Positions 10,783 through 59,531 of a stretch of 64,000 nucleotides of DNA are shown piece after piece. Both the position numbers and the translations under genes were made by a program. Position 1 is the first letter of the stretch, and the number at the start of each line of letters is the position of its first letter. Source of the stretch: Roseovarius bejariae (GTDB taxonomy: Bacteria > Pseudomonadota > Alphaproteobacteria > Rhodobacterales > Rhodobacteraceae); NCBI RefSeq assembly GCF_009669325.1, contig NZ_SZWE01000001.1, positions 2,795,501 to 2,859,500 of the forward strand, in the 5' to 3' direction. The notes beneath the pieces are model-generated. The model searched no databases. It saw only the letters and a list, made by a program, of their open reading frames with translations, and was not told where the DNA came from.

Positions 10783-11340
10783 TCATTTGTAGTCGACCTT
10801 GGGCACCAAACGCGGTGCGGTGAATATTCTCGTTTCGACATTGAGCGCATCGCCCAAGCCGACCTTGAAGCTGGGTGTGTAGACCGAGACCGCTTCGACG
10901 AGAATGATCTGCTGTCCTTCGATCAGTTCCGGCAAGCGATCCGTTTGTTCGTTGATGGACGTATCGTCCAGATCCTCTAATGTGCCAGTCCCGCGTGTAT
11001 GCGACCAAGATACATGGTATTTTTGAGTGTCTTCATCGTATTCAACAACCGAAACGCGAATTTGGTTTTCGCCTTCATCATTGGTCATGTCATCAAAGAC
11101 TGTCAGGGTCCGATCCAGATAGTTGGAGGTGATAGCAAATTCTTCGCGCGAAATCATGTCTGCGATGGTATAGGTCGCCTTTTCGCGCGCGCTTTGATAG
11201 CGGTGAACTTCGTGAAACTCATACGTGGCCGCCGTGGCCCAGAACAGCATGGGCAGGGCGATCACCGTTTCCACCATGATGCTGCCATGTGTGTCTTTGC
11301 GGAAGTCTTTCAGAAGGCGTTTCAATCGTTGAAAAAGCAT
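10783..11340 (-). CDS. TadE-like pilus assembly protein
   Basis: 185 residues. A basic N-terminus (FQRLKRLLKDFRKDTHGSI) precedes a TadE-type helix with VETVIALPMLF, including the conserved Glu, then a periplasmic domain. TadE and TadF pseudopilin-like proteins are cleaved by a TadV-type peptidase and help assemble Flp pili. The ATG at 11340 follows the upstream stop by one base and has AGGAG 10 bases before it; a longer frame would use a TTG inside the neighbouring gene. It is the last of three cotranscribed genes. Confidence 0.75.
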   Translation of the reverse strand: MLFQRLKRLLKDFRKDTHGSIMVETVIALPMLFWATAATYEFHEVHRYQSAREKATYTIADMISREEFAITSNYLDRTLTVFDDMTNDEGENQIRVSVVEYDEDTQKYHVSWSHTRGTGTLEDLDDTSINEQTDRLPELIEGQQIILVEAVSVYTPSFKVGLGDALNVETRIFTAPRLVPKVDYK

Positions 11341-11341
11341 T

Positions 11342-11875
11342 TTACTTGGGCTCCTGAACAAATGCCGTCATCGCAACGATGCTAGCGTCGCCGCTTGCGT
11401 CTTTCGTGAGTTTGCTGCCCAAAAGCGCCGCCGGGAACAGCGGGCGATATTTGTAGCAGGCCCGCAAAACCATCAAATCATTCTCGCCACCGGTTTGAAA
11501 TGCGACGGGATTGGTTTCTTCGGCGCGATCGGTGCAGTCGACAGTGTCACTCAGCGACGTATAGTTGCGAATGCTTTTCTGCCGCATTTCAAGGCGAAGC
11601 GATTCCTTGCAATGAGCAACCGATAGGGCATTGTCGCAGATCTTGTCCTTGATCTCATCATGCTGCCAGTCCGCGCCGGTGCCGAGACGAATTTCACGGA
11701 CGGTCATGTCGAGGCCGCGCTCAAGTAGGGCGTAGCGCATGGTGATGAAGCCAAGTTCGACCGCGATCAAGAGCAAGGCAATGAAGACCGGGAAGATGAT
11801 CACGAATTCCACCGTGACTACACCTTCAGTGTCGTCTCGGAAGCGCCGGAGAAGGGGAAGCTTGAGACGTCTCAT
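11342..11875 (-). CDS. TadE/TadF-like pilus assembly protein
   Basis: 177 residues. DDTEGVVTVEFVIIFPVFIALLL is the TadE-type prepilin-like segment with the conserved Glu; a periplasmic domain with four or five cysteines follows (ICDNA, HCKES, VDCTD, RACYK), suggesting disulfides. The start ATG overlaps the stop of the vWA gene (ATGA, 11872-11875), so translation is coupled. A longer in-frame extension lies wholly inside that neighbour and is rejected. Confidence 0.75.
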   Translation of the reverse strand: MRRLKLPLLRRFRDDTEGVVTVEFVIIFPVFIALLLIAVELGFITMRYALLERGLDMTVREIRLGTGADWQHDEIKDKICDNALSVAHCKESLRLEMRQKSIRNYTSLSDTVDCTDRAEETNPVAFQTGGENDLMVLRACYKYRPLFPAALLGSKLTKDASGDASIVAMTAFVQEPK

Positions 11876-13920
11876 TGGGTCAACTTCAAGGCCATGACAT
11901 TGGAGGCGATGGCGCCGAATGTCTGATTGATATCCAATGTCGTCGAGATGAAGTGATTGGCCGGCGTACTGGCACATTTCTCAAGTTCCTCGGCGGCAGT
12001 ATCACCTTCGCCCAGTTCGAAGGCGATGGTGTAGATCGTTACCCCCTCATTATCGGCGGCATTGCAGACATCCTCCATGCGCGAGTTCTTTTCATAAGGT
12101 GTCAAGCGCGAGGAGGAGCCCGAGTTGTATTGATTGTAAGCGCCCCAGTCACCGCTGATGTCGCCGTATTCATAGGGGGTCATAAGGCCCCAGGCCTCTT
12201 CCCAGGAAAAACGCTCGTAGAACTTGTCTTCAGGTTGAGTGAAGTTTTCCTCGACATAATCAAGGGTCTCTTCTGCCAAGTCGATCGTATCCACGGCCAC
12301 ATTGAAACCAGCCGACAAATTGCTCAGATTCCCGTTGTATTCGGTCAGTTCGTCGATTTTGGCGTTGAACTCCGACGTGGAGTATCTATCGCCGTCAGAG
12401 AAACCCTGGTCTGGATCGAGCTTGATGTATTCATGCGACGAAGGGGAATAGAGGTAGAAGGACGGTTCGGGTTGCCCGGTCATGTCGGCCCCCACTTCCA
12501 CTTCGTTGTACTCGCATGTCCAATACCAGTACGCACCGCAGAGCCATTCGCTATAAGACACGTGCCCCCATGGCGTGGTTGCGCGAACGAATACCATTTC
12601 CGTTTCCGCCGCTGCCGGTTCATTGAGCAGGTAGAGGTTAGAGTTGGGCCCACGGTAATCGCTGGAGGCATGGCTTTCGGGTACATCGGGATCCAACAGA
12701 TTGTTCGGATCGCTCAGGAGATAGGTGTTGGAGTTGGCCCCGTCGCCCATGACGACCATGATCTTCATGGCCTTGGGGCTGCTGTAGGATTCGGGAAGTG
12801 TCTCAAAATCGGAATCGACGAGCATGGTGTGCGTCGTCGTCAGGTTCCCGTCGTTGTCGACTTCAGGGATGTCCTGTGTATTTGCTTGCAGGGCAGTTGC
12901 AACCGGCTGGAATTTCGGGTCCAGCAGGGCGGCGCCCCATTTGACGCCCATGTCAGACGATGTACCGCCCGCCGCGGTCAGTGCATCAATCTTGTCATGC
13001 AGATCGGCCTCGTTGCTTGAGTAGGCAAGGATTTCGAAACGCGGATCGGCATAGCAAGACGAGTTGTAGGCGCTTGAATAGCCGTTCTCGATGTCACCGT
13101 TGCCGACGGTGCCGAAATCGGCGTTGTTCCAGCTACCGTAGTCGACCGAGGTGTAAATCGTTTGCGCGTAGTCGCGATCGGGATCGATATAAGGATCCGC
13201 GAAGTCGCCGTCGTCAAACGAAAGGCAGCGTGTGTAGTGATGTGTCGTGTTGGCGCTCAGCGCATTGTAGATCGCCGCGGGCGGTGGTGCGTTGAAGCTG
13301 TAGGGCACGATTGAGAAGGCGACCTTGCCACCCTCGGAATTGTTCAGGATTTGTGTGACGAAGTCTTTCGCGGCATCTTGGAGCGCATCCAGGCGATCAC
13401 CGGCCATAGAGCCGGACACGTCGAGCACAAGGGCGATTTCAAGCTGTTGAACACTTGTACGCGCGGTCGAGGCCGCGGCGGCGCTCAGGGTCTCGACGCC
13501 GGTCAGGCGCATAAGGTGGGTGTCGAGTGTCTCGCTGGCTGATGCCGAGACTTTTGCCGAGGCTTGCGTCACGACAATATCGCCCTCATTGATGGCATGG
13601 AGGGCATCTTCGAGGCCGGCTTTCTTGAAGTGATCCTTGAGTCGGTCTTCGGCGTCAGGTGTGTCGGGATCTTCGTCATACGGTACGGTTGCGGCTGACA
13701 GCACGGCGGCATCAAGATTGGCCTGAAGCTTGGCGCGGTGCATTTCTTGACGCATGACGTCAACACCGAAGCTGGCGATCAGCAAAATGATAAACAGGAG
13801 ATAAAGTGTTAAAAGTGTAGCGCCGCCATCTTCATCATGGCGAAACCGTTTTGACGCAATCAGCCGTGTATGAACACCCGCCAACTTTTTGCAGCGCGAC
13901 TTCAAATTGATCGTTCGCAT
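11872..13920 (-). CDS. TadG-like protein with von Willebrand A domain
   Basis: 682 residues. A TadE/G-like N-terminus (about 28-77, EDGGATLLTLYLLFIILLIASFG in two pieces of helix) anchors the protein. A von Willebrand A domain follows with a complete MIDAS start, LVLDVSGSM (Asp167, Ser169, Ser171), interrupted by long acidic, Tyr/Ser/Asn-rich insertions, and ends near GVTIYTIAFELGEGD. Such proteins are linked to Tad pilus assembly and surface adhesion. It heads a three-gene minus-strand operon with two TadE-like genes. GC is visibly lower than in the flanking genes. No Flp pilin, TadA ATPase or secretin lies beside it. Confidence 0.85.
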   Translation of the reverse strand: MRTINLKSRCKKLAGVHTRLIASKRFRHDEDGGATLLTLYLLFIILLIASFGVDVMRQEMHRAKLQANLDAAVLSAATVPYDEDPDTPDAEDRLKDHFKKAGLEDALHAINEGDIVVTQASAKVSASASETLDTHLMRLTGVETLSAAAASTARTSVQQLEIALVLDVSGSMAGDRLDALQDAAKDFVTQILNNSEGGKVAFSIVPYSFNAPPPAAIYNALSANTTHHYTRCLSFDDGDFADPYIDPDRDYAQTIYTSVDYGSWNNADFGTVGNGDIENGYSSAYNSSCYADPRFEILAYSSNEADLHDKIDALTAAGGTSSDMGVKWGAALLDPKFQPVATALQANTQDIPEVDNDGNLTTTHTMLVDSDFETLPESYSSPKAMKIMVVMGDGANSNTYLLSDPNNLLDPDVPESHASSDYRGPNSNLYLLNEPAAAETEMVFVRATTPWGHVSYSEWLCGAYWYWTCEYNEVEVGADMTGQPEPSFYLYSPSSHEYIKLDPDQGFSDGDRYSTSEFNAKIDELTEYNGNLSNLSAGFNVAVDTIDLAEETLDYVEENFTQPEDKFYERFSWEEAWGLMTPYEYGDISGDWGAYNQYNSGSSSRLTPYEKNSRMEDVCNAADNEGVTIYTIAFELGEGDTAAEELEKCASTPANHFISTTLDINQTFGAIASNVMALKLTQ

Positions 13921-14226: not shown

Positions 14227-15657
14227 ATGACCAAGACCAAGGAACCCACATTTCGCGAAAGCGTAGACTTGATGTTCAACCGCGCGGTTTCGCTGATGGA
14301 TCTCCCCCCCGGGCTGGAAGAAAAGATCAGGGTATGCAACGCGACGTATACAGTACGGTTCGGCGTGCGCCTGCGTGGTCAGATTCATACATTCACCGGC
14401 TATCGCAGCGTGCATTCGGAACATATGGAGCCGGTCAAGGGTGGTATTCGGTACGCGACATCGGTCAATCAGGACGAGGTCGAGGCCCTGGCGGCGTTGA
14501 TGACCTACAAGTGTGCGCTTGTGGAGGCTCCTTTCGGGGGGTCGAAAGGCGGGCTGTGTGTCGATCCGCGCGAGTGGGATGAACATGAGCTTGAACGCAT
14601 CACCCGGCGCTTTGCCTATGAATTGGCCAAGCGCGACCTGATCCATCCTTCCCAGAACGTGCCCGCGCCTGACATGGGCACGGGTGAACGTGAGATGGCA
14701 TGGATCGCGGACCAGTATCGCCGGATGAATACCACCGATATCAACGCGCGGGCCTGTGTGACAGGCAAGCCGGTGAATGCGGGTGGTATCCAGGGCCGGA
14801 CCGAGGCCACCGGCCGTGGTGTGCAATATGCCCTGCGCGAGTTCTTCCGCCATCCCGAGGATGTCAAGAAGGCGGGGCTGAGCGGTAAGCTGGACGGTAA
14901 GCGCGTTGTGGTGCAGGGGCTTGGTAACGTGGGCTATCACGCGGCGAAGTTCCTGTCAGAGCAGGACGGCTGCAAGATCACGGCGGTTATCGAGCGTGAC
15001 GGCGGGTTGATGGATGAAAACGGCCTTGATGTCGAAGACATCCGCAACTGGATCGCCAAGCATGGCGGCGTGGACGGGTATCCTTCGGGCAAGTACATCC
15101 GGGATGGCTCGAAGTATCTTGAGCACGATTGCGATATCCTGATCCCTGCGGCGCTTGAAGGGGTGATCAACCTCGACAATGCCGAGAACATCAAGGCGCC
15201 CTTGATCATCGAAGCGGCGAATGGCCCGGTGACGGCCGGGGCCGATGCCATACTTCGCCAGAAGGGTACGGTTATCATTCCCGATATGTATGCCAACGCG
15301 GGTGGTGTGACGGTGTCCTATTTCGAATGGGTCAAGAACCTGAGCCATATTCGCTTTGGCCGGATGGGCCGCCGTCAGGAGGAGGCTCGGCACGAATTGA
15401 TCGTCAACGAGCTTCACAAGCTGGATGAGCATCTGGGCGAAAAATGGTCGATGTCGCCGGACTTCAAGCAAAAGTACCTGCGCGGGGCCGACGAGTTGGA
15501 GCTTGTACGCTCGGGCCTCGATGACACGATGCGCACGGCGTATCAGTCGATGCGTGCAATCTGGCACGAGCGCGAAGATTGCGAAGACCTGCGCACGGCG
15601 GCCTATCTTGCGTCGATCGAGAAAGTCGCCGCCAGCTACCGCGCCTTGGGCCTTTAA
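14227..15657 (+). CDS. Glu/Leu/Phe/Val dehydrogenase, probable glutamate dehydrogenase
   Basis: 476 residues. The catalytic segment KCALVEAPFGGSKGG holds the active-site lysine, PVKGGIRY the substrate-binding lysine, and VVQGLGNVGYHAA the NAD(P) Rossmann turn. ANGPVTAGAD and NAGGVTVSYFEWVKN are typical of glutamate dehydrogenases. It interconverts glutamate with 2-oxoglutarate and ammonia. The start follows GGGGAGAAAG by 3 bases; an upstream in-frame ATG at 14179 lacks a ribosome site. Monocistronic or joined to the DUF6151-like gene 9 bases downstream. The nearby sarcosine and betaine genes release amine nitrogen, so a catabolic role is plausible. Confidence 0.85.
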   Translation: MTKTKEPTFRESVDLMFNRAVSLMDLPPGLEEKIRVCNATYTVRFGVRLRGQIHTFTGYRSVHSEHMEPVKGGIRYATSVNQDEVEALAALMTYKCALVEAPFGGSKGGLCVDPREWDEHELERITRRFAYELAKRDLIHPSQNVPAPDMGTGEREMAWIADQYRRMNTTDINARACVTGKPVNAGGIQGRTEATGRGVQYALREFFRHPEDVKKAGLSGKLDGKRVVVQGLGNVGYHAAKFLSEQDGCKITAVIERDGGLMDENGLDVEDIRNWIAKHGGVDGYPSGKYIRDGSKYLEHDCDILIPAALEGVINLDNAENIKAPLIIEAANGPVTAGADAILRQKGTVIIPDMYANAGGVTVSYFEWVKNLSHIRFGRMGRRQEEARHELIVNELHKLDEHLGEKWSMSPDFKQKYLRGADELELVRSGLDDTMRTAYQSMRAIWHEREDCEDLRTAAYLASIEKVAASYRALGL

Positions 15658-50772: not shown

Positions 50773-50814
50773 GGCCCTGAGGAGACATTCTGGTCCAGAA
50801 TATGACCGGGCTTG

Positions 50815-50890
50815 GTGGGGGCTGCCGGAAGCGGCCCTCTTGGTGAGGCCGCGTCGGACAGCCCCCACCCCGGCCGGTCTCGCTTACACA
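50815..50890 (+). repeat. hairpin element, copy A
   Basis: GTGGGGGCTG (50815-50824) pairs with CAGCCCCCAC (50859-50868), with inner GCGGCC/GGCCGC (50831-50836 and 50847-50852). The hairpin is followed by CCGGTCTCGCT-ACAC. Copy B at 55341 matches over about 75 bases. It lies 106 bases upstream of a start codon. Confidence 0.7.
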
Positions 50891-51373: not shown

Positions 51374-51759
51374 TGCAGGGCAGTCAATCGACAAAGCTGG
51401 CGCAAGCGCGTGTCTTGACGCTCTATGTCGGCCGGTGGCTGGATCTGCTTGATTTCCAGGCCCACCAGGCGGCGCCACCCTTCTCCCCGAGCGTTTCCAC
51501 CTATCACGACATGCTGGACCCGAACGGGACGGATGCCGCCCGGCTCGCGGCTTGTTGGGCAATGCAACACCATGTTCGACGCCGCGCTGAAGCCGAACGA
51601 ATGCACGGCGAAGCTGCCTACGCCCGCCTCCGTCCGGTTGATCCCTATGGTCACCGCTGGCGCACCACGCGCGAAGGTGCAGCCCTGGAGACGATTGCTT
51701 CTATGCTCTCATCGGCAATCGAGCTCTTCAGTAGCAGCACCAATGAGGCCGCCAGGTGA
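51373..51759 (+). CDS. small protein of unknown function, intact copy of a duplicated family
   Basis: 128 residues. DFQAHQAAPPFSPSVSTYHDML, TDAARLAACWAMQHHVRRRAEAE and RLRPVDPYGHRWRTTREGAA are well conserved in the truncated second copy at 57852. It appears soluble and helical, with a conserved His-Arg-Trp segment. The ATG overlaps the previous stop; a hairpin terminator (51765-51792) follows. It faces the pilin-BspA gene. No family is recognised. Confidence 0.6.
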   Translation: MQGSQSTKLAQARVLTLYVGRWLDLLDFQAHQAAPPFSPSVSTYHDMLDPNGTDAARLAACWAMQHHVRRRAEAERMHGEAAYARLRPVDPYGHRWRTTREGAALETIASMLSSAIELFSSSTNEAAR

Positions 51760-51764
51760 GAAAA

Positions 51765-51797
51765 AGTGGGGTCGCAAGGATGTGACCCCACTCTTCT
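51765..51797 (+). terminator. terminator hairpin after the 128-residue gene
   Basis: AGTGGGGTC (51765-51773) and GACCCCACT (51784-51792) form a perfect 9-bp stem with a 10-base loop, followed by CTTCT. It lies 5 bases after the stop. Confidence 0.65.
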
Positions 51798-51876
51798 GCA
51801 GGAGTTATGTTAAACCCGCAGTTCAGGCTTCAATAGCGCGCTACCGGATGAGGTTCACCCATCGTATTCAAAGAAA

Positions 51877-51898
51877 AACGCCGCCCGAGGGCGGCGTT
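51877..51898 (-). terminator. terminator hairpin after the pilin-BspA gene
   Basis: AACGCCGCCC (51877-51886) and GGGCGGCGTT (51889-51898) form a stem with a two-base loop; in the minus direction it runs into TTTTTC. It ends the minus-strand gene 24 bases after its stop. Confidence 0.75.
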
Positions 51899-51922
51899 GG
51901 TCTATCTCTTATGCGTTACGGC

Positions 51923-53023
51923 TTACGGGGTGCAGTTCTGGAAGTTGGGTGGCGTGAGTGCTCCAGCATTAGCAGCGAAATTTTGACAAAGAGTCACATT
52001 CGGATTCACCGTCCATCCGGACAGATTTTGGTTAAAGGCGACGGCATTTTGGAACATGCCGTGCATAGCCGTCACGCTCGATGTGTCCCAAAAACTGATG
52101 TCCTGGTTGAACGCGTTGGCGTGACCGAACATACCCCACATCTCCGTGGCACTGGACGTGTCCCAGCTTCCGATGTCCTGATTGAAGGCGCTGGTTTCGA
52201 AAAACATTTGGTGCATATCGGTGACGATCGAGGTATCCCAACTGCTGATGTCCTGATTGAATGCGGTGGTATAGGAGAACATTTTACCCATATCTGTCAC
52301 GCTTGAAGTATTCCAAGCGCTGATATCCTGATTGAAGGCGTCAGTGAAGCTGAACATGCTACTCATGTCCGCTACGCTCGAGGTATCCCAACCGCCGATG
52401 TTCTGGTTGAAGGCCTCGGCGTTGAAGAACATAAGGCTCATATCCGCTACGCTCGACGTATCCCATCCGCTGATGTCCTGATTGAACGCCGATGCACTGA
52501 TAAACATTCCGCTCATATCAATCACGCTCGACGTGTCCCAGTAGCTGATATCTTGGTTGAAGCCATTATCGAGGCGGAAAAGATTTGAAAAATCAGTGAC
52601 CTGGCCGGTGAAAATATTGCTCTGTGAATTGGCGAAGGTATAGCTGTTATTGTCGGGACCAGTGATCGCGTAACTTTCATCGCCGCCGGCTTCGCTGGAA
52701 GCCACCGCGCGCAGCATCGTGTTATCCACGATCAACATGCCCTCGCAAACTGATCCGGTGCCGACGGGGGCGATTGTCCCTACATTGGTCGGATCATAGC
52801 ACTCGCTGTCAGTCACGGGCTCTGAGCCTCCTGCGGATTCGCTGCCAGCACCAGCTCTACCACCTGCTTCCTTGTTCGCGACCTCTTTGGCCAAACCATC
52901 GAAGGTGTCTTTTGCCGTGGTGCCGTATTGGAGTACCGCGCTGATGGCCAAGATGCTGATCAGTCCTACCAGTAGGCCGTACTCTGTTGCACTCGCCGCT
53001 CTGTTGTGCATCGAAAGCCTCAT
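51923..53023 (-). CDS. Flp-type prepilin fused to BspA-like repeats, intact copy
   Basis: 366 residues. The first 49 ([20 protein letters not shown], then [19 protein letters not shown]) are a Flp/Fap type IVb prepilin: a short leader, Glu14-Tyr15 at positions +5/+6 of the predicted mature chain, one hydrophobic helix. After a Gly/Ser/Ala linker and a Cys-containing stretch, residues 155-329 are seven 25-residue BspA-like repeats ([20 protein letters not shown]), with a partial eighth. BspA repeats are surface binding domains. The ATG at 53023 is chosen because AGGGA lies 7 bases before it and it aligns with copy 2. A cleaved, pilus-displayed adhesin is inferred. GC is low for this genome. 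Confidence 0.85.
52037..52561 (-). repeat. seven tandem 75-bp BspA-like coding repeats
   Basis: Each unit encodes 25 residues starting FNQ and ending near MF plus five variable residues. Unit length is constant; the differences sit mainly in the last five residues and at the D/S positions. In-register repeats of this kind can recombine, so repeat number may vary between strains. Confidence 0.85.
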
Positions 53024-53409
53024 CATATTTCCCTTTGTTCTCTTGTGGCTTCTCAGCAAATAGGAACAGGCGGTGCGCGCCAGAAACAGTCTGTTCTGAA
53101 AACCCGAACTCAAAAGGCGAGCCATATACCCCTTTGGGTAGCCCGGAATGTTCCGAAGTTTTTGATCTGGATTTCGGGAGATCGCGACCCCACCCAGCGG
53201 AACCCCTCGTCTGATTTGACAGCTTCGGTGGCGGGGGCTTCGTTTAACATGGAGCCACCTGGCGCACAGCCCTTGATGGGCCCGCGCCTACGAATGGCGA
53301 CAGCAGATCAGATTGCCCACAGCGAGCTCTTGTCGCCAGGTCGACTATTCGGGACCTGTTTGAGACTATCCAATGCTGTCTTCGCGTGGAGAGTTCTTGG
53401 AATTTACAA
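53024..53409. other. promoter region of the pilin-BspA gene (386 bp)
   Basis: No gene was found. The 190 bp next to the gene are about 80 percent alike to the region upstream of copy 2 (59532-59715), including CCAGAAACAGT-TGTTCTGAAAA and the CTCAAAAGGCGAGC block. On the minus strand a TATATG/TATAAA-like hexamer lies within the shared part. The remainder, toward the nuclease gene, is unlike copy 2. Confidence 0.55.
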
Positions 53410-54861
53410 TCAGAGTTTGCTGGCCGACGCGCGCCGGGTGCCGTCCACAAACACTATCGGTGACACCTGTTCACCTCTTTCGGCCGCTTCATTCTTGATT
53501 TGCAGCAGCCGGGCATCTTTCTTGCCCATCTGGCCCACATCGACCACGACATAATAACCGTGAAGGGCTTCTTCTGCAGTCTTGTAGGTCTCCAGCTGCT
53601 TCGTGTACCCGCTCACGAGTTTGCCGTTGCGAGACAGCTTGATCTCGACCAGCACGCGGCCCGCGTACCCTTGCGATACCTTGAAATCGACCGGGCCGTT
53701 GCCAGTATCCGCCTCGGGCGTGAGGTCCAGATTGTTGGCTTTGCAGTAGGCATGCGCCACAGCGAAAAATAATCGCTGCGCCGCCTTTTCTGGTCGCGGC
53801 GCACCCGCATGATATAGTTCTTCAGAGAACCGGCGGTCTTCGATCAGAAATTGAAATTGCTTGATGATCTGCTCGACCACACTCACGACGCCTGCGTAAT
53901 CCAGGGTCGGTGGCTTTTCGATCGTCATGGGTGCCTGGTCGGCGAGCGTTGTCGCCAACCTGCGCCAGAATACTTCGCCGAGCGGATCGCCAGACAGGTC
54001 ATAGGGCTGGGGATCCGCCCCTTTTATCATTTCCAGGAAGGTCTCAAACTCGTCTCGGCCATTGAGCGCCCATCGGCGCAATTTGTCCTTGTCCTTCCGG
54101 CTCCGGACTTCCCAGAGCGCTGCAATCTGGTCGTTTACCCGGCTTCTGAGTTGCTCGTTTTTCGAGGCTGCGTCAGCGACACCCGACCAGTCCGTTACAA
54201 CGGGGAGATCGCGCAGGGCATCCGCAGGAACCAAGATAACCGGCTCGCCCTGAGATAGGTGCGGATTGGCGGGCAGTGTCGCCTCAAAGGTCTTGCCGTT
54301 GCGAAGGCTTATTTGCATGGGCTTCCCGGCCACGCCCAACTCAGCAAGTACGCGGTTGTTGAATTTCAGCAGATCACCCAGAATGACGTTCGTCGTCATA
54401 TCGCTGATGCGGTCTGGGCCAACGCCTTCTTCGAACAGTGCCATCGCGACGAAAAGATCGGGGTCCTCCACGCCCAACGAGACGATTTGCTTGGCCGTTT
54501 CGATGAAATGACCGGTCATGTGCGCACCCGATCCACTGCCCGACACTGACTCGGCACCGTATCCAAGGCAGCTCCACTTGATCTCAGGGAAGGACAGCAG
54601 GCGTTGCGCGCTACGCCAAGCAACATCGTTCGGGCCGGTTGTCCTGCTCAGGAACTTAATGACATTTGTGAAATGCTGCTCGTATGTGCGCCTGGCCCCC
54701 TTTGCGATTTCGGGGTGGCGGCTCTTGGCAAGCAGTAGTGGGTCGATGAACAGGCGTGTATCGACATTCAATGTCGGATCAAGCACGCCGGCCTTTACCA
54801 TCGCTTCCGGAGATATCCTGAAGTGGTCAGAGAAGCGCTCAGGGTTTCTTACCTTACCCAT
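53410..54861 (-). CDS. PD-(D/E)xK (RecB-like) nuclease-domain protein
   Basis: 483 residues, soluble. The C-terminal domain has the nuclease signature Asp392 (GPVDFKV), Glu406-x-Lys408 (VLVEIKLS) and the QxxxY motif Gln422-Tyr426 (KQLETYK), which together define RecB-family PD-(D/E)xK nucleases. The N-terminal two thirds (RFSDHFRISPEAMVKAGVLD, then DPLLLAKSRHPEI) belong to no family I can name. It follows a small RSAISGR-repeat gene after 62 bases on the same strand. Its setting in an accessory island suggests defence or mobile-element biology; the activity is inferred. Confidence 0.7.
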   Translation of the reverse strand: MGKVRNPERFSDHFRISPEAMVKAGVLDPTLNVDTRLFIDPLLLAKSRHPEIAKGARRTYEQHFTNVIKFLSRTTGPNDVAWRSAQRLLSFPEIKWSCLGYGAESVSGSGSGAHMTGHFIETAKQIVSLGVEDPDLFVAMALFEEGVGPDRISDMTTNVILGDLLKFNNRVLAELGVAGKPMQISLRNGKTFEATLPANPHLSQGEPVILVPADALRDLPVVTDWSGVADAASKNEQLRSRVNDQIAALWEVRSRKDKDKLRRWALNGRDEFETFLEMIKGADPQPYDLSGDPLGEVFWRRLATTLADQAPMTIEKPPTLDYAGVVSVVEQIIKQFQFLIEDRRFSEELYHAGAPRPEKAAQRLFFAVAHAYCKANNLDLTPEADTGNGPVDFKVSQGYAGRVLVEIKLSRNGKLVSGYTKQLETYKTAEEALHGYYVVVDVGQMGKKDARLLQIKNEAAERGEQVSPIVFVDGTRRASASKL

Positions 54862-55133: not shown

Positions 55134-55436
55134 CTCTGAGACCTCCATATGATGTGTCCAAGGCTGTGAACTCCACCACATATACCACAAACTGCATGAA
55201 GCACAAAGAGTGAACGCCATTCGGTGCCACAAGACAATGCGGGCGGTGACGTCGCGCTGTTTGTCGATCAAGGCATTTGAAGCTGGCGCCTCTGGCACGC
55301 AGTGAAAACACTCCGCTGATCCGGGAAATGGCCGACAAGGGTGGGGCTGTCTGACGCGGCCCTCCTGATGAGGCCGCGTCGGAAAGCCCCCACTCCGCCG
55401 GTCTCGCTGACACTCACTCTCCTGCGAGGTTTCCCG
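55134..55436. other. divergent promoter region with hairpin element B (303 bp)
   Basis: No gene was found. It separates the minus-strand small-protein/nuclease pair from the plus-strand S8 protease and must contain both promoters. Hairpin element B lies at its right end; the rest shows no clear repeats. Confidence 0.5.
55341..55415 (+). repeat. hairpin element, copy B
   Basis: GTGGGGCT (55341-55348) pairs with AGCCCCCAC (55385-55393, one bulged C), and GACGCGGCC (55353-55361) with GGCCGCGTC (55372-55380). The tail GCCGGTCTCGCTGACAC matches copy A. It lies 43 bases upstream of the protease start. Confidence 0.7.
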
Positions 55437-57746
55437 ATGACACGACGCGGCATGCTTTCTCTCACAACCGCCCTGAGCCTGGCTTTCTCGCCTGTGGCCG
55501 GACACGCCCAAGATCGCCAATTCTCCTACGCTGCTAACGAAGCGGCCTCTTCCGTAAGCGCAGGGGGCGGAATAAATATCGGCCTTTTCCTGGGCGGCCT
55601 TGTAATCGCCGGAGGTCTTGCCGCAACTATGATTGATTACACTATGTTTGGTTACGATAAAGAAGGCGTTAGTTACGACCCGACTCCCCTCCCTGGTCCA
55701 AGACCCGGCCCAGGGCCTCGATCGATCGACCCCAGACCCCGCGCGTCTTACGAGACCAACGAGTACCACCGTAATTGGGGGCTCGACTCGATGAATGCAG
55801 CGGCACGCTATGCCGATGGCGGGACTGGTCTTGGCAGTCTTATCGCCGTTTTTGACAGTGGCGCAGACGTCAATCATGTTGATCTTGCCGCGAATATCGA
55901 CGACAGCCTGTCGCATACCTACTATGAAGCGCCCAACAACGATATCTCCGATGTCTTCGATGACAGCGGGCACGGCACCTACATGGCGCATATCATCGCC
56001 GGAGCTAAGAACGATGTCGGCAGTCACGGCGTCGCATTCGATGCTGATCTAATGATCCTCCAAGGAATCGCCCACCAAGGGAAGCGACGGGTCCAGCTAC
56101 ACGGTTCATTGGCCCATGCCACGCGGAGCGCGATCAGTGCCGGCGCGCAGGCTATCAATCACAGCTGGATTTTCTTCGACGAAGAAAAACGGACCCGCAC
56201 GATCGACCGCTACTCCAGCAGATCTCATCTCGAAGGATTTTTTGGTTCTGACGTGATGGATGCGTTTGACACTGCCGTGGAAAACGACCTGGTGATGGTT
56301 TTTGCAACCGGAAACGATGGGCTTGCCCAGCCCTCGAACACTGCCGGCATGGCAGTTCTCTTCCCGGAAATGGGTAATCACGTTCTTGGGGTCACTGCGA
56401 TTGATCGGAATGACCAGATCGCAAGTTCTGCCAATAGATGTGGCGACGCGCGTAATTTCTGCCTCGCTGCACCGGGCGTCGGCATCTACGCCGCCCACGC
56501 CGATGAGCAGCGAAACGGAATCTTCAGCGGCACCAGCGGCACCTCGCCCGCAGCCGCGCACGTTAGCGGCGCCGTCGGCGTGATGGCGAGTAACTTTCCT
56601 GAGCTCACCGGGGCGGAGATCACGACGATCCTGCGTGATACCGCGCGCGATCTTGGTGCCGCCGGCGTGGATTCCGTCTACGGCCACGGCGCGCTCGATC
56701 TGGAGAATGCGGTCATGCCACAGGGGGAAATCACCCTTCAAACTACATCGACGCTGGGGGAGCGCGAAATTGCTGCTTCTGACAGCCATGTCTCCGCTCC
56801 TGGCGTGATGGCCGCGGCGCTTTCGCAATCCTTCGGGGATACCAGCGTGATGGTCACCGACGGCTACGACCGTGGCTACACCGCGTCGCTTGGCGCCTTC
56901 GTGGGTTCTGGGTTCGACAGTGCGCGCTCCCTTGACCGGATGGATGCCTTTGTCCAAGGACATGACAGTGCATCGCAAATCCGCGGGAACGACACGACCC
57001 TGGCGTTCTCGATGTCGAGCGGGGCCGCGCTTCCCGATGATCCCTATGCCGGGCTTTTCGAGACCGCCGGATCAGTTTCCATGGCCGCCGATCTTGGCGC
57101 GACTCGGGTCACCGTCGCGTCGGCCTTCGCCGGACGCGACAGTGCCATGGATGGGTATTATGCTTCGCTGGGTGCTGCCCATGATTTCGGCGGGGTCATG
57201 CTGGAAACCCGCTTCGGACTGACCCGGGAGCGCGACAGCTTCCTCGGCACTCAGGTGAGTGGTGCTTTCGGTGGAATCGACAGCCAGACCACCTTCGCCT
57301 CTCTGGGTGGGCAGATCGACATCGGCGCGGGGGCGGCTTTGAGCGCGACCGCCACGCTGGGTGAGACCTCGTTCGACGGCTCCAACCTGCTGCGCAAGGG
57401 TAGCGGGATTGGAACCCAGTCTATCCGCCTGGGTTATGAAGCCCGCGACATCATCGCGGCTTATGACAGCTTCGCTTTCGCGGCCTCCCGCGAGATGTCG
57501 TTGACTGGTGGCGAGATGACCGTCGCTCTGCCCACGGCACTCGGTGCCGCGGAAGGGAGCACGCGTTCCTCGGATGTCACGGTCGAAACCCAGAGCATTG
57601 CGATGGAACAGGTATCCGCGCCGCTCGACCTGGAAATGCGGTATACGCGCCAGGTGGGCCTGGGGCGCTTCGCCCTCGGCGCCAACTGGCGGCCCGATGT
57701 CTCCGGGCACGAAGTCGTGAGTGTCGGATATACCGTTCGGTTCTGA
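55437..57746 (+). CDS. S8 serine protease autotransporter
   Basis: 769 residues. A signal peptide (MTRRGMLSLTTALSLAFSPV, cleaved near GHAQ) is followed by a hydrophobic stretch and Pro-rich linker (PTPLPGPRPGPGPR), then a subtilisin domain with Asp140 (AVFDSGAD), His179 (DSGHGTYMAH) and Ser370 (SGTSPAAAHVSG). The C-terminal 350 residues are a beta-rich domain ending in YTVRF, typical of outer-membrane barrels. A surface or secreted protease is expected. The ATG at 55437 has CGAGG 8 bases before it. It may process island surface proteins, but no direct link is shown. Confidence 0.85.
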   Translation: MTRRGMLSLTTALSLAFSPVAGHAQDRQFSYAANEAASSVSAGGGINIGLFLGGLVIAGGLAATMIDYTMFGYDKEGVSYDPTPLPGPRPGPGPRSIDPRPRASYETNEYHRNWGLDSMNAAARYADGGTGLGSLIAVFDSGADVNHVDLAANIDDSLSHTYYEAPNNDISDVFDDSGHGTYMAHIIAGAKNDVGSHGVAFDADLMILQGIAHQGKRRVQLHGSLAHATRSAISAGAQAINHSWIFFDEEKRTRTIDRYSSRSHLEGFFGSDVMDAFDTAVENDLVMVFATGNDGLAQPSNTAGMAVLFPEMGNHVLGVTAIDRNDQIASSANRCGDARNFCLAAPGVGIYAAHADEQRNGIFSGTSGTSPAAAHVSGAVGVMASNFPELTGAEITTILRDTARDLGAAGVDSVYGHGALDLENAVMPQGEITLQTTSTLGEREIAASDSHVSAPGVMAAALSQSFGDTSVMVTDGYDRGYTASLGAFVGSGFDSARSLDRMDAFVQGHDSASQIRGNDTTLAFSMSSGAALPDDPYAGLFETAGSVSMAADLGATRVTVASAFAGRDSAMDGYYASLGAAHDFGGVMLETRFGLTRERDSFLGTQVSGAFGGIDSQTTFASLGGQIDIGAGAALSATATLGETSFDGSNLLRKGSGIGTQSIRLGYEARDIIAAYDSFAFAASREMSLTGGEMTVALPTALGAAEGSTRSSDVTVETQSIAMEQVSAPLDLEMRYTRQVGLGRFALGANWRPDVSGHEVVSVGYTVRF

Positions 57747-57851: not shown

Positions 57852-58181
57852 GGAGGTGAACTGGACCTGCAGGATTTCCAGGCTCAAAAGGCAGCGCCAG
57901 CCTTCTACCCGAGCGTTTCCACTTACCACGACATGCTCGACTCAGAAGGCACGGACGCGGCCCGGCTCGCGGCTTATTGGGCAATGCACCAACACATTCT
58001 GCGCCGCGTCGACGCCGAACGCTCGCTGGGTGAGGCCACCTACCCGCGTCTCCGTCCGGTTGATCCCTACGACCAACGCTGGCGCACGACACGAGACGGT
58101 GCAGCCTTGGAGACGATTGCTTGTATGCTCTCAACCGCAATCGAGCTTTTCGAATCTGGCTCCAACCAATTTAGAGCTTGA
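57852..58181 (+). pseudogene. 5'-truncated copy of the 128-residue small protein gene
   Basis: The frame opens after a TAA at 57849 and encodes 109 residues starting at the point matching DLLDFQ of the intact copy, so the first 25 or so codons are missing. DFQAQKAAPAFYPSVSTYHDML and RLRPVDPYDQRWRTTRDGAA are nearly identical. No normal start codon precedes ATG 57933, which would give only 82 residues. It faces the second pilin-BspA gene, as in copy 1. Confidence 0.7.
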
Positions 58182-58349: not shown

Positions 58350-59531
58350 TTAGGGGGTTGGGCAGGTGCCCCATTGCGGCAGATTAGCGGAGCTGATCGA
58401 GGTTTCGAACAAGAGTGGCTCGCTTGGGATATTCGAAACGCACCAGCCACTGATATCCTGATCAAAAGCAAGGGGTCCATCACCTTCGGATCCGTTATCA
58501 TAGAACATGGTGTCCATATCCGTCACACTTGACGTATCCCACGCGCCAATGTCCTGGTTGAACGAAAGCGCTTCTCGAAACATGGCTCCCATATCGGTAA
58601 CATTCGACGTGTCCCAGGCTCCAATATCCTGGTTGAAGGCGTCGGTGGCTGTAAACATGAAGGACATATTAGTCACACTCGAAGTGTCCCAGGAGCCGAT
58701 GTCCTGGTTGAAAGCGTCGGCGCCTATAAACATGAAGGACATATTAGTCACACTCGACGTATCCCATCCGCCGATGTCCTGGTTGAAAGCGATGGCAGTG
58801 CGGAACATTTCGTTCATATCTGTCACACTTGAAGTATTCCAGGAGCTGAGATTCTGATTGAAGGTGTCAGCACTTTCGAACATCCGACCCATATCCGTCA
58901 CACTTGATGTATCCCACCCACTGATGTCCTGGTTGAATTCGTCAAGATAAGTGAACATGCCTTGCATATTCGTGACGCTTGAGGTGTCCCATCCTCCAAT
59001 ATCCTGGTTGAAGAGATCGGCGCTGTAGAACATTCGTCCCATATCCGTCACGTTTGACGTATCCCAGTAGCCGATATACGGGTTTGTGGAATCTGCAAAG
59101 AAAAGATTAGAGAAATCAGTTACTTGCCCGGTGAAGACGTTATATTGGGAATCGGCGAAAGTGTAGGTATTGCTGTCAGGACCGGTGATTGCGTAGCTTT
59201 CATCGCCACCGGCGCCGCTGGAGGCGGCAGGACGCAGCATTCCGTTATCAACGATTAGCATTCCTTCGCATCCGGTCCATCCGGTGCTACCGATCAGACC
59301 AACGTTTGCAGGATCGTAGCAGTCGCCACTGGTAACCGGCGTTGAACCAGCGCCAGCATCAACTCCACCACCTGATTCCTTGTTAGCGATATTTGCCGCC
59401 AAGCCATCGAAGGTGTCGCGTGCCGTGGTTCCGTACTCAAACACAGCGCCAATTTACAGGACGCCAATCAGTCCAAGCAGAATGCTGTACTCCGACATGC
59501 TTGCGCCCTTGTTGTTCGTCGTAAGCCTCAT
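58350..59531 (-). pseudogene. second Flp-prepilin/BspA-repeat gene, in-frame stop in the pilin helix
   Basis: From ATG 59531 the frame encodes MRLTTNNKGASMSEYSILLG and LIGVL, then TAA at 59454-59456, then continues in the same frame ([18 protein letters not shown]) to 58350. The leader is a canonical Flp site: Gly9, with Glu14-Tyr15 at +5/+6. The rest aligns with copy 1 and carries about nine BspA-like units, one with a 7-residue insertion ([12 protein letters not shown]). Restart at GTG 59444 would lose the pilin leader. Either a recent inactivation, stop readthrough or a sequencing error applies. RBS AGGGA precedes the ATG. Confidence 0.82.

Follow-up and report, generated by a model that had tools for sequence, protein, structure and literature searches.

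The question raised by this locus was whether a single reading frame joins a complete Flp prepilin to a BspA-like repeat domain, as a preliminary description had proposed, and what such a protein would do. The gene, designated copy A, is an intact frame of 366 aa (51923..53023, minus strand) in the window, that is, the whole stretch of Roseovarius bejariae DNA that was analysed (64 000 nucleotides); two paralogues, copies B and C, served for comparison. A Shine-Dalgarno-like AAAGGGA (53030..53036, minus strand) lies 5′ of the ATG at 53023. Because this element adjoins the ATG and copies B and C keep the same ATG, the start at 53023 is favoured; AAGGGA is kept in the alignment of all three copies, and a further ATG three bases upstream is found in copy A only, being missing from B and C. 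About 150 bases of upstream DNA are common to the gene copies (53027..53184, minus strand; shared by A and B and partly by C in blastn searches and alignment), and no sigma-70 consensus was found in the upstream region of copy A. An intrinsic terminator-like hairpin (nine pairs, T tail; 51877..51898, minus strand) follows about 25 bases past the stop codon; with two such sites in the region and 1.4 expected from shuffled sequence, it is weak evidence alone. The same kind of hairpin lies 3′ of copy C and of the orthologue tail in a genome of the same genus (G015). The GC content of copy A (52.7 % against 61.4 % for the window; 51–54 % against 61 % when copies A, B and C are taken together) suggests that the gene arrived recently.

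The gene directly upstream of copy A (53410-54861, minus strand) encodes a protein of 483 aa, which neither Pfam nor NCBIfam recognises at E≤0.1 and which PADLOC relates weakly to PDC-M36A (28.8 bits). An S8 peptidase, assigned by Pfam above the cut-off, is encoded in the interval separating copies A and B (55341-57746, plus strand); NCBIfam likens it to mycosin and an autotransporter protease, in both cases below the cut-off. A dispersed repeat of 76 bp occurs at 50814-50889 and 55340-55413 and again in the sister genome G015 (L020:1246-1321), with 87 % identity inside the window and 91 % to G015. On the opposite strand, an ORF of 293 aa (51425-52306, plus strand) spans the repeats of copy A; according to the available text of PMC2996958, opposite-strand ORFs lie over many PARCEL coding regions.

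Residues 1–50 (52874..53023, minus strand) form the Flp prepilin module, assigned by PF04964 and by an ungapped match to 8u1k and 8u2b. A leader (MRLSMHNRA, residues 1–9) ends at the predicted cleavage site A9|A10 and is followed by ASATEY, with Glu14 and Tyr15 at +5 and +6, a stretch of about 20 residues, most of them hydrophobic, and a short Flp-like tail. The Glu-Tyr pair after a leader and the single helix had been described before and were seen in the sequence; the residue preceding the predicted cleavage site is Ala and not Gly. Gly or Ala at −1 is the consensus stated for CpaA sites in the available text of PMC12607857, and copy A fits Glu+5/Tyr+6 after either residue plus one hydrophobic helix. 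The expected match to PF04964 (Flp_Fap) was borne out by its E value (1.6e-6; residues 8–46 on profile positions 6–44 of 46) but not by its score, which at 28.2 bits for the protein and 31.4 bits in a six-frame search stays just under the curated cut-off of 32.2; the newer model PF04964.20 is listed for the database protein of copy A (P0002). Aligned to the solved PilA 8u1k as a single sequence, the head matched without gaps from mature +1 over 35 residues (E 0.0017), and a fusion-family profile matched it, also ungapped, over 43 of 45 residues (E 4.5e-6). Since the alignment to PilA is ungapped from mature +1, the Flp subunit is retained whole, beyond a signal. The predicted structure has a helix over residues 12–51 at low pLDDT, and no N_methyl match (PF07963) was obtained for copy A at E≤0.1. 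The Flp_Fap match, the alignment to solved Flp pilins and the fusion family set out below uphold the earlier view that the first 50 or so residues are a complete Flp prepilin; the opposite outcome, a plain signal or anchor devoid of Flp likeness, did not come true. Flp pilins are all helical and of 50–80 residues (the length being that given in the available text of PMC12075869), against 366 for copy A, which therefore carries an Flp module and is not an ordinary Flp pilin.

The linker (residues 51–73; 52805..52873, minus strand) is rich in Gly, Ser, Ala and Glu, with pLDDT of about 30 over residues 51–70. Between head and repeats lies a solenoid N-cap that was absent from the preliminary description (residues 74–150; 52574..52804, minus strand); it contains Cys75 and Cys93, is conserved in alignments and follows the pattern CYDP...C.GMLIVD...FTGQVT. 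Residues 151–366 (51926..52573, minus strand) are DUF285/BspA repeats, as seen from HMM matches, the structural model and cores spaced by 25 residues. Eight FNQ[DN] cores at 155, 180 and onwards to 330, each exactly 25 apart, correspond to seven full repeats and a last core, and the DNA has a period of 75 bp. PF03382 scored 382.9 bits (cut-off 25) and TIGR02167 matched seven stretches with 134 bits (cut-off 30), so that the linker followed by seven 25-residue BspA-like repeats, and the assignment of the latter to DUF285, were confirmed. A second Cys pair (Cys346/Cys364) lies in the C-cap. A protein related to the N-cap (47 % identity) is also encoded on a viral contig (L087, IMGVR_UViG_3300024319_000992).

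In at least 11 further database proteins an Flp head is likewise followed by a linker, a Cys-pair cap and DUF285 repeats; together with one paralogue, these provide the related fusions that had been anticipated elsewhere. Members were gathered from protein-database searches, a motif scan of 157 N-termini and read sequences (P0017 and P0084 by eye), and their number is a lower bound, the initial protein search having been taken as the best 120 of 5974 matches. In the family alignment (n=13: copy A, copy C and 11 database proteins) Ala+1, Glu+5, Tyr+6 and both N-cap Cys residues are invariant (13/13), to be read in the light of the Glu/Tyr motif having been partly the selection criterion. Position −1 holds Gly in seven and Ala in five of the 12 tabulated members, the motif again being part of the selection. 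A DUF285 match was found in all 13 members and a Flp_Fap match at E≤0.01 in nine, leaving four without one at that threshold. Among the nine database members scored singly, P0127 alone exceeds the Flp_Fap cut-off (42.4 against 32.2 bits); P0017 gave no match and the remainder fell under it. Residues 1–60 used alone as query recovered copy A's own protein only (1 of 67 candidates at E≤1), whereas the Flp+cap query matched 42 of 499 candidates and was informative where the head-only query was not.

The distribution among genomes was surveyed in genus, family, order, class and phylum samples, which overlap and each count the own genome (G000). At 1e-5, P0001 was matched in 6 of 84 genomes of the genus, the own genome and five others: three of these (G043, G063 and G073) have other BspA proteins in which no Flp head is visible, in G039 the match begins off its contig, and in G015 synteny persists downstream of copy A (84.5 % over 1627 bases) and runs into the last 40-odd residues of a copy A orthologue, which stops near a contig edge. 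The upstream side of copy A was not found in G015 by a search run without a positive control. At this contig edge, just before the orthologue tail (L020:1-100), GTGGGTCAATTTT is present twice; the doubled sequence resembles the end of an insertion element. Matches were obtained in 7 of 394 genomes of the family sample, where besides the own genome only G202 has head and cap, in an interrupted frame; 20 of 390 genomes matched in the order sample (1e-6), and 2 of 385 and 5 of 398 in the class and phylum samples (1e-10), in all three with the Flp part only outside the own genome. Profiles of Flp plus cap gave whole-query matches in the own genome only (family, order, class and phylum samples).

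Flp_Fap itself gave 51 matches, spread over 45 of 292 genomes of the order. Frames longer than 250 aa with this domain were limited to copy A and one in G171, which covers profile positions 12–36 only; copy A is the sole full Flp_Fap head in such a frame among these 292 genomes. Nineteen loci in named genomes were also inspected. No Flp head is visible in the 15 that give frames of at least 149 aa, of which L031, L032 and L041 start beyond the contig edge; the other four yield nothing but short frames, and the G202-type sequence (L046) is one of these. Separately, genome G663 encodes a 255-aa protein (L075:946-1713, minus strand) with an Flp-like head and a different C-terminal part; its head was matched by the fusion-family profile (E 5.0e-7) and by no Pfam model, Flp_Fap included.

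Copy A joins an Flp module, a linker and an LRR solenoid in one frame, the arrangement is conserved as a unit, and the genome holds one Tad machine. On balance, and with modest confidence, copy A is probably a Flp/Tad-type modular minor pilin that displays an adhesive LRR module, much as the preliminary description had suggested with its pilus-displayed adhesin or tip minor pilin. Given the Flp head, a pilus is the most likely carrier of the LRR module, and pilus display would be the most likely function. The prepilin would be inserted into the inner membrane and cut after Ala9 by TadV/CpaA; a few subunits would then be taken up into the Tad filament by means of the Flp helix. The linker of about 22 residues would let the solenoid, with its Cys pairs at both ends forming disulfides, protrude from the pilus, at its tip or along its shaft, to bind a ligand carried by a surface or another cell. 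The modular minor pilin is supported by the Flp_Fap match, the ungapped alignment to PilA, the twelve other sequences with the same arrangement, the dN/dS of the head between copies A and B, the Tad system, the Ala at −1 and the DUF285 repeats behind N_methyl heads, and also by the gene's own terminator-like hairpin and the upstream region common to the paralogues. Against it stand the Flp_Fap score under the Pfam cut-off, the four family members that miss Flp_Fap at E≤0.01, the Asp-Trp subtype of the resident pilins, the low GC content, the broken copy B, the Arg residues in copy C, the distance of the tad core, the rarity of the fusion in relatives and the mere orthologue tail at a contig edge in G015.

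The single Tad locus of the genome comprises CpaB, a secretin, TadZ-like and TadA-like ATPases, TadB, TadC, two TPR proteins and one A24 prepilin peptidase (the sole one at E≤0.001), so that the genome supplies both a peptidase and an export machine; the cognate TadV lies at L012:4508-5041. Its core lies about 335 kb from copy A. A dedicated tad locus beside the fusion was sought and not found, since both PF00482 matches and the one PF01478 match of the own genome (E≤0.001) fall in that one distant tad locus. The resident pilins (L012:15178-15390 and 14878-15066, minus strand) read G|AVTVDWV, with Asp-Trp at +5/+6, and have no PF04964 match at E≤0.1; Flp surveys made with PF04964 miss this subtype. 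Because the resident pilins have Asp-Trp and not Glu-Tyr, the fit of the copy A head to the resident machine is not a given, and the subtype mismatch is the strongest argument against simple incorporation of copy A into the Tad pilus. It favours an alternative that we consider unlikely, in which the Flp module is a mere membrane anchor that keeps the protein in the inner membrane with the LRR part periplasmic, never entering a filament. Other N-cap proteins, which begin with apparent plain signal peptides or membrane helices, agree with an anchor, and copy C and P0017, which lack the Flp tail, would fit it. However, most members retain the Flp subunit over its full length, tail included, the family profile covers nearly all of PilA, and Glu+5 and the tail would be superfluous for a simple anchor.

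Elsewhere in the window, and far from the tad core, lie a TadE-like protein (11342-11977, minus strand; Pfam), a small protein with a pilin-like start (10783-11361, minus strand; no Pfam match over cut-off) and a Tad/vWA protein (11872-13920, minus strand; Pfam); these are probably tip minor pilins of the Tad system.

Copy B (58350..59531, minus strand) has the same architecture as copy A but is broken within the pilin helix, where codon 26 is a TAA stop; the protein database contains a relative, P0020, whose helix is open. Copy C (G000:C1:2878759-2879649) lies 19 kb beyond the window end and is an open frame; it and its database relative P0017 have two Arg residues in the helix and miss the Flp tail. 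Two segments that adjoin copies A and B (51439-51729 and 57861-58151) are 82 % identical and hold similar small ORFs, and the duplication seems to have included flanking DNA. The region beside copy C (L014:5951-13390) encodes RES and Xre/MbcA/ParS proteins (toxin-antitoxin type), an MmeI-type IIG restriction-modification enzyme, a helicase and a T5orf172 protein, and is a putative defence island.

Signs of decay are seen in the local family. A further explanation, likewise improbable in our estimate, holds that a horizontally acquired family is decaying and that copy A is intact by chance, with little present function. The interrupted copy B, the Arg residues in the helix of copy C, the G015 orthologue cut at the contig edge, the low GC content and the rarity in relatives would all be expected from decay, but copy A is open over 366 codons and keeps its start region and terminator-like hairpin, and open members occur among the other database proteins. 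Values of dN/dS, which gauge past and not present constraint, also speak against decay: about 0.26 for the head (49 codons) and 0.23 for the repeats between copies A and B, and 0.34, 0.28 and 0.08 for head, cap and repeats between A and C; in the cap, synonymous sites between A and B are saturated (pS 0.77, pN 0.14).

A chance frame, in which a BspA protein happens to start with an ordinary signal or membrane helix resembling a Flp pilin, draws on the Flp_Fap score under the curated cut-off but is extremely improbable and, together with a plain signal peptide, was rejected because head, linker, cap and repeats are conserved as a unit in other sequences, the same head occurs in 12 of them (P0127 scoring far above the cut-off), the family profile matches solved Flp pilins and non-synonymous change is restrained on both sides of the junction.

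The repeat domain is found behind other N-termini too. DUF285 repeats, often with the same N-cap, follow apparent signal peptides or other membrane helices (P0102); they follow N_methyl heads over the curated PF07963 cut-off in P0055, P0089 and P0105, of which P0105 only has the N-cap. Heads of the form G|QAAxEFLxTYGW precede them in P0046, P0154, P0155 and P0157, in which no Pfam pilin family was matched and whose heads resemble archaeal-type pilin signals. Since the capped LRR occurs repeatedly on secreted and pilin-type N-termini, it is best read as a candidate ligand-binding surface module.

More tentatively, and possible rather than probable, Flp pilins may be a second, overlooked chassis for modular pilins, with DUF285, and possibly another domain in L075, as exchangeable binding heads. 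Because a Flp subunit consists of no more than a helix, a domain borne on a flexible linker could be placed anywhere along the Tad pilus and not at the tip alone. Tad pili are widespread, and their known variable, function-giving domains lie on TadG/CpaL/Kil-type tip proteins, as the available text of PMC12075869 and PMC12607857 has it. If the modular pilin reading is true, an Flp subunit that brings along a binding domain would offer a simple, movable route to altered pilus specificity, the way in which a pilin of 50 residues gives rise to a specific adhesive organelle would become directly testable, and the very large, function-unassigned DUF285/BspA family would gain a possible display route.

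The preliminary description knew of no described example. This stands for Flp, in that no published Flp pilin with BspA repeats was found in a PubMed Central subset holding few subscription journals (a description elsewhere being possible); it does not stand for modular pilins of the N_methyl type (IPR012902), which are known and include IPR026906 (PMC8179133, available part). As far as searched, the fusion architecture is new as the Flp version of modular pilins. In those parts of PMC8179133 that were available, modular type IV pilins are reported to number more than 1,200 proteins in 264 architectures (IPR012902 heads only), PilB of Streptococcus sanguinis is shown to act as an adhesin made by domain grafting, IPR026906 ranks with the 15 commonest extra domains, and Flp does not occur. 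IPR026906 is LRR_5, placed in BspA proteins in the available text of PMC5998147, and the S. sanguinis proteins PilB and PilC are named as modular pilin examples in that of PMC10191384. According to the available text of PMC2996958, in which pilins are nowhere mentioned, BspA/DUF285/PARCEL proteins have membrane-targeting sequences of assorted topology and include surface lipoproteins. Large exposed domains of Tad pili sit on TadG/CpaL/Kil-type minor pilins, and the exposed tip domain is proposed to set what the Tad pilus does, both according to the portions of PMC12075869 and PMC12607857 at hand.

Compared with these systems, copy A has the N-terminal prepilin module and the domain not specific to pili that define modular pilins. 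Like S. sanguinis PilB and PilC, which have a short class III prepilin head (PMC8179133, in part), it consists of a prepilin head, a linker and a large non-pilus domain; unlike the surveyed modular type IV pilins with IPR012902 heads (same part of that source), its head is a Flp pilin with no globular head of its own, and its repeats are DUF285. TadE/F/G, CpaL (vWA) and Kil Tip complexes are, in the sources available in part, Tad-associated proteins with predicted prepilin-peptidase sites and a large exposed domain, which copy A resembles, but unlike the TadE/F/G minor pilins it has no PF07811 (TadE) or PF13400 (Tad) match at E≤0.1. With Caulobacter PilA (8u1k) it shares the leader, Glu/Tyr at +5/+6, the helix and the tail, and with BspA/DUF285/PARCEL proteins, as described in the available text of PMC2996958, it shares 25-residue repeats with conserved cores, the 75-bp period and a long opposite-strand ORF.
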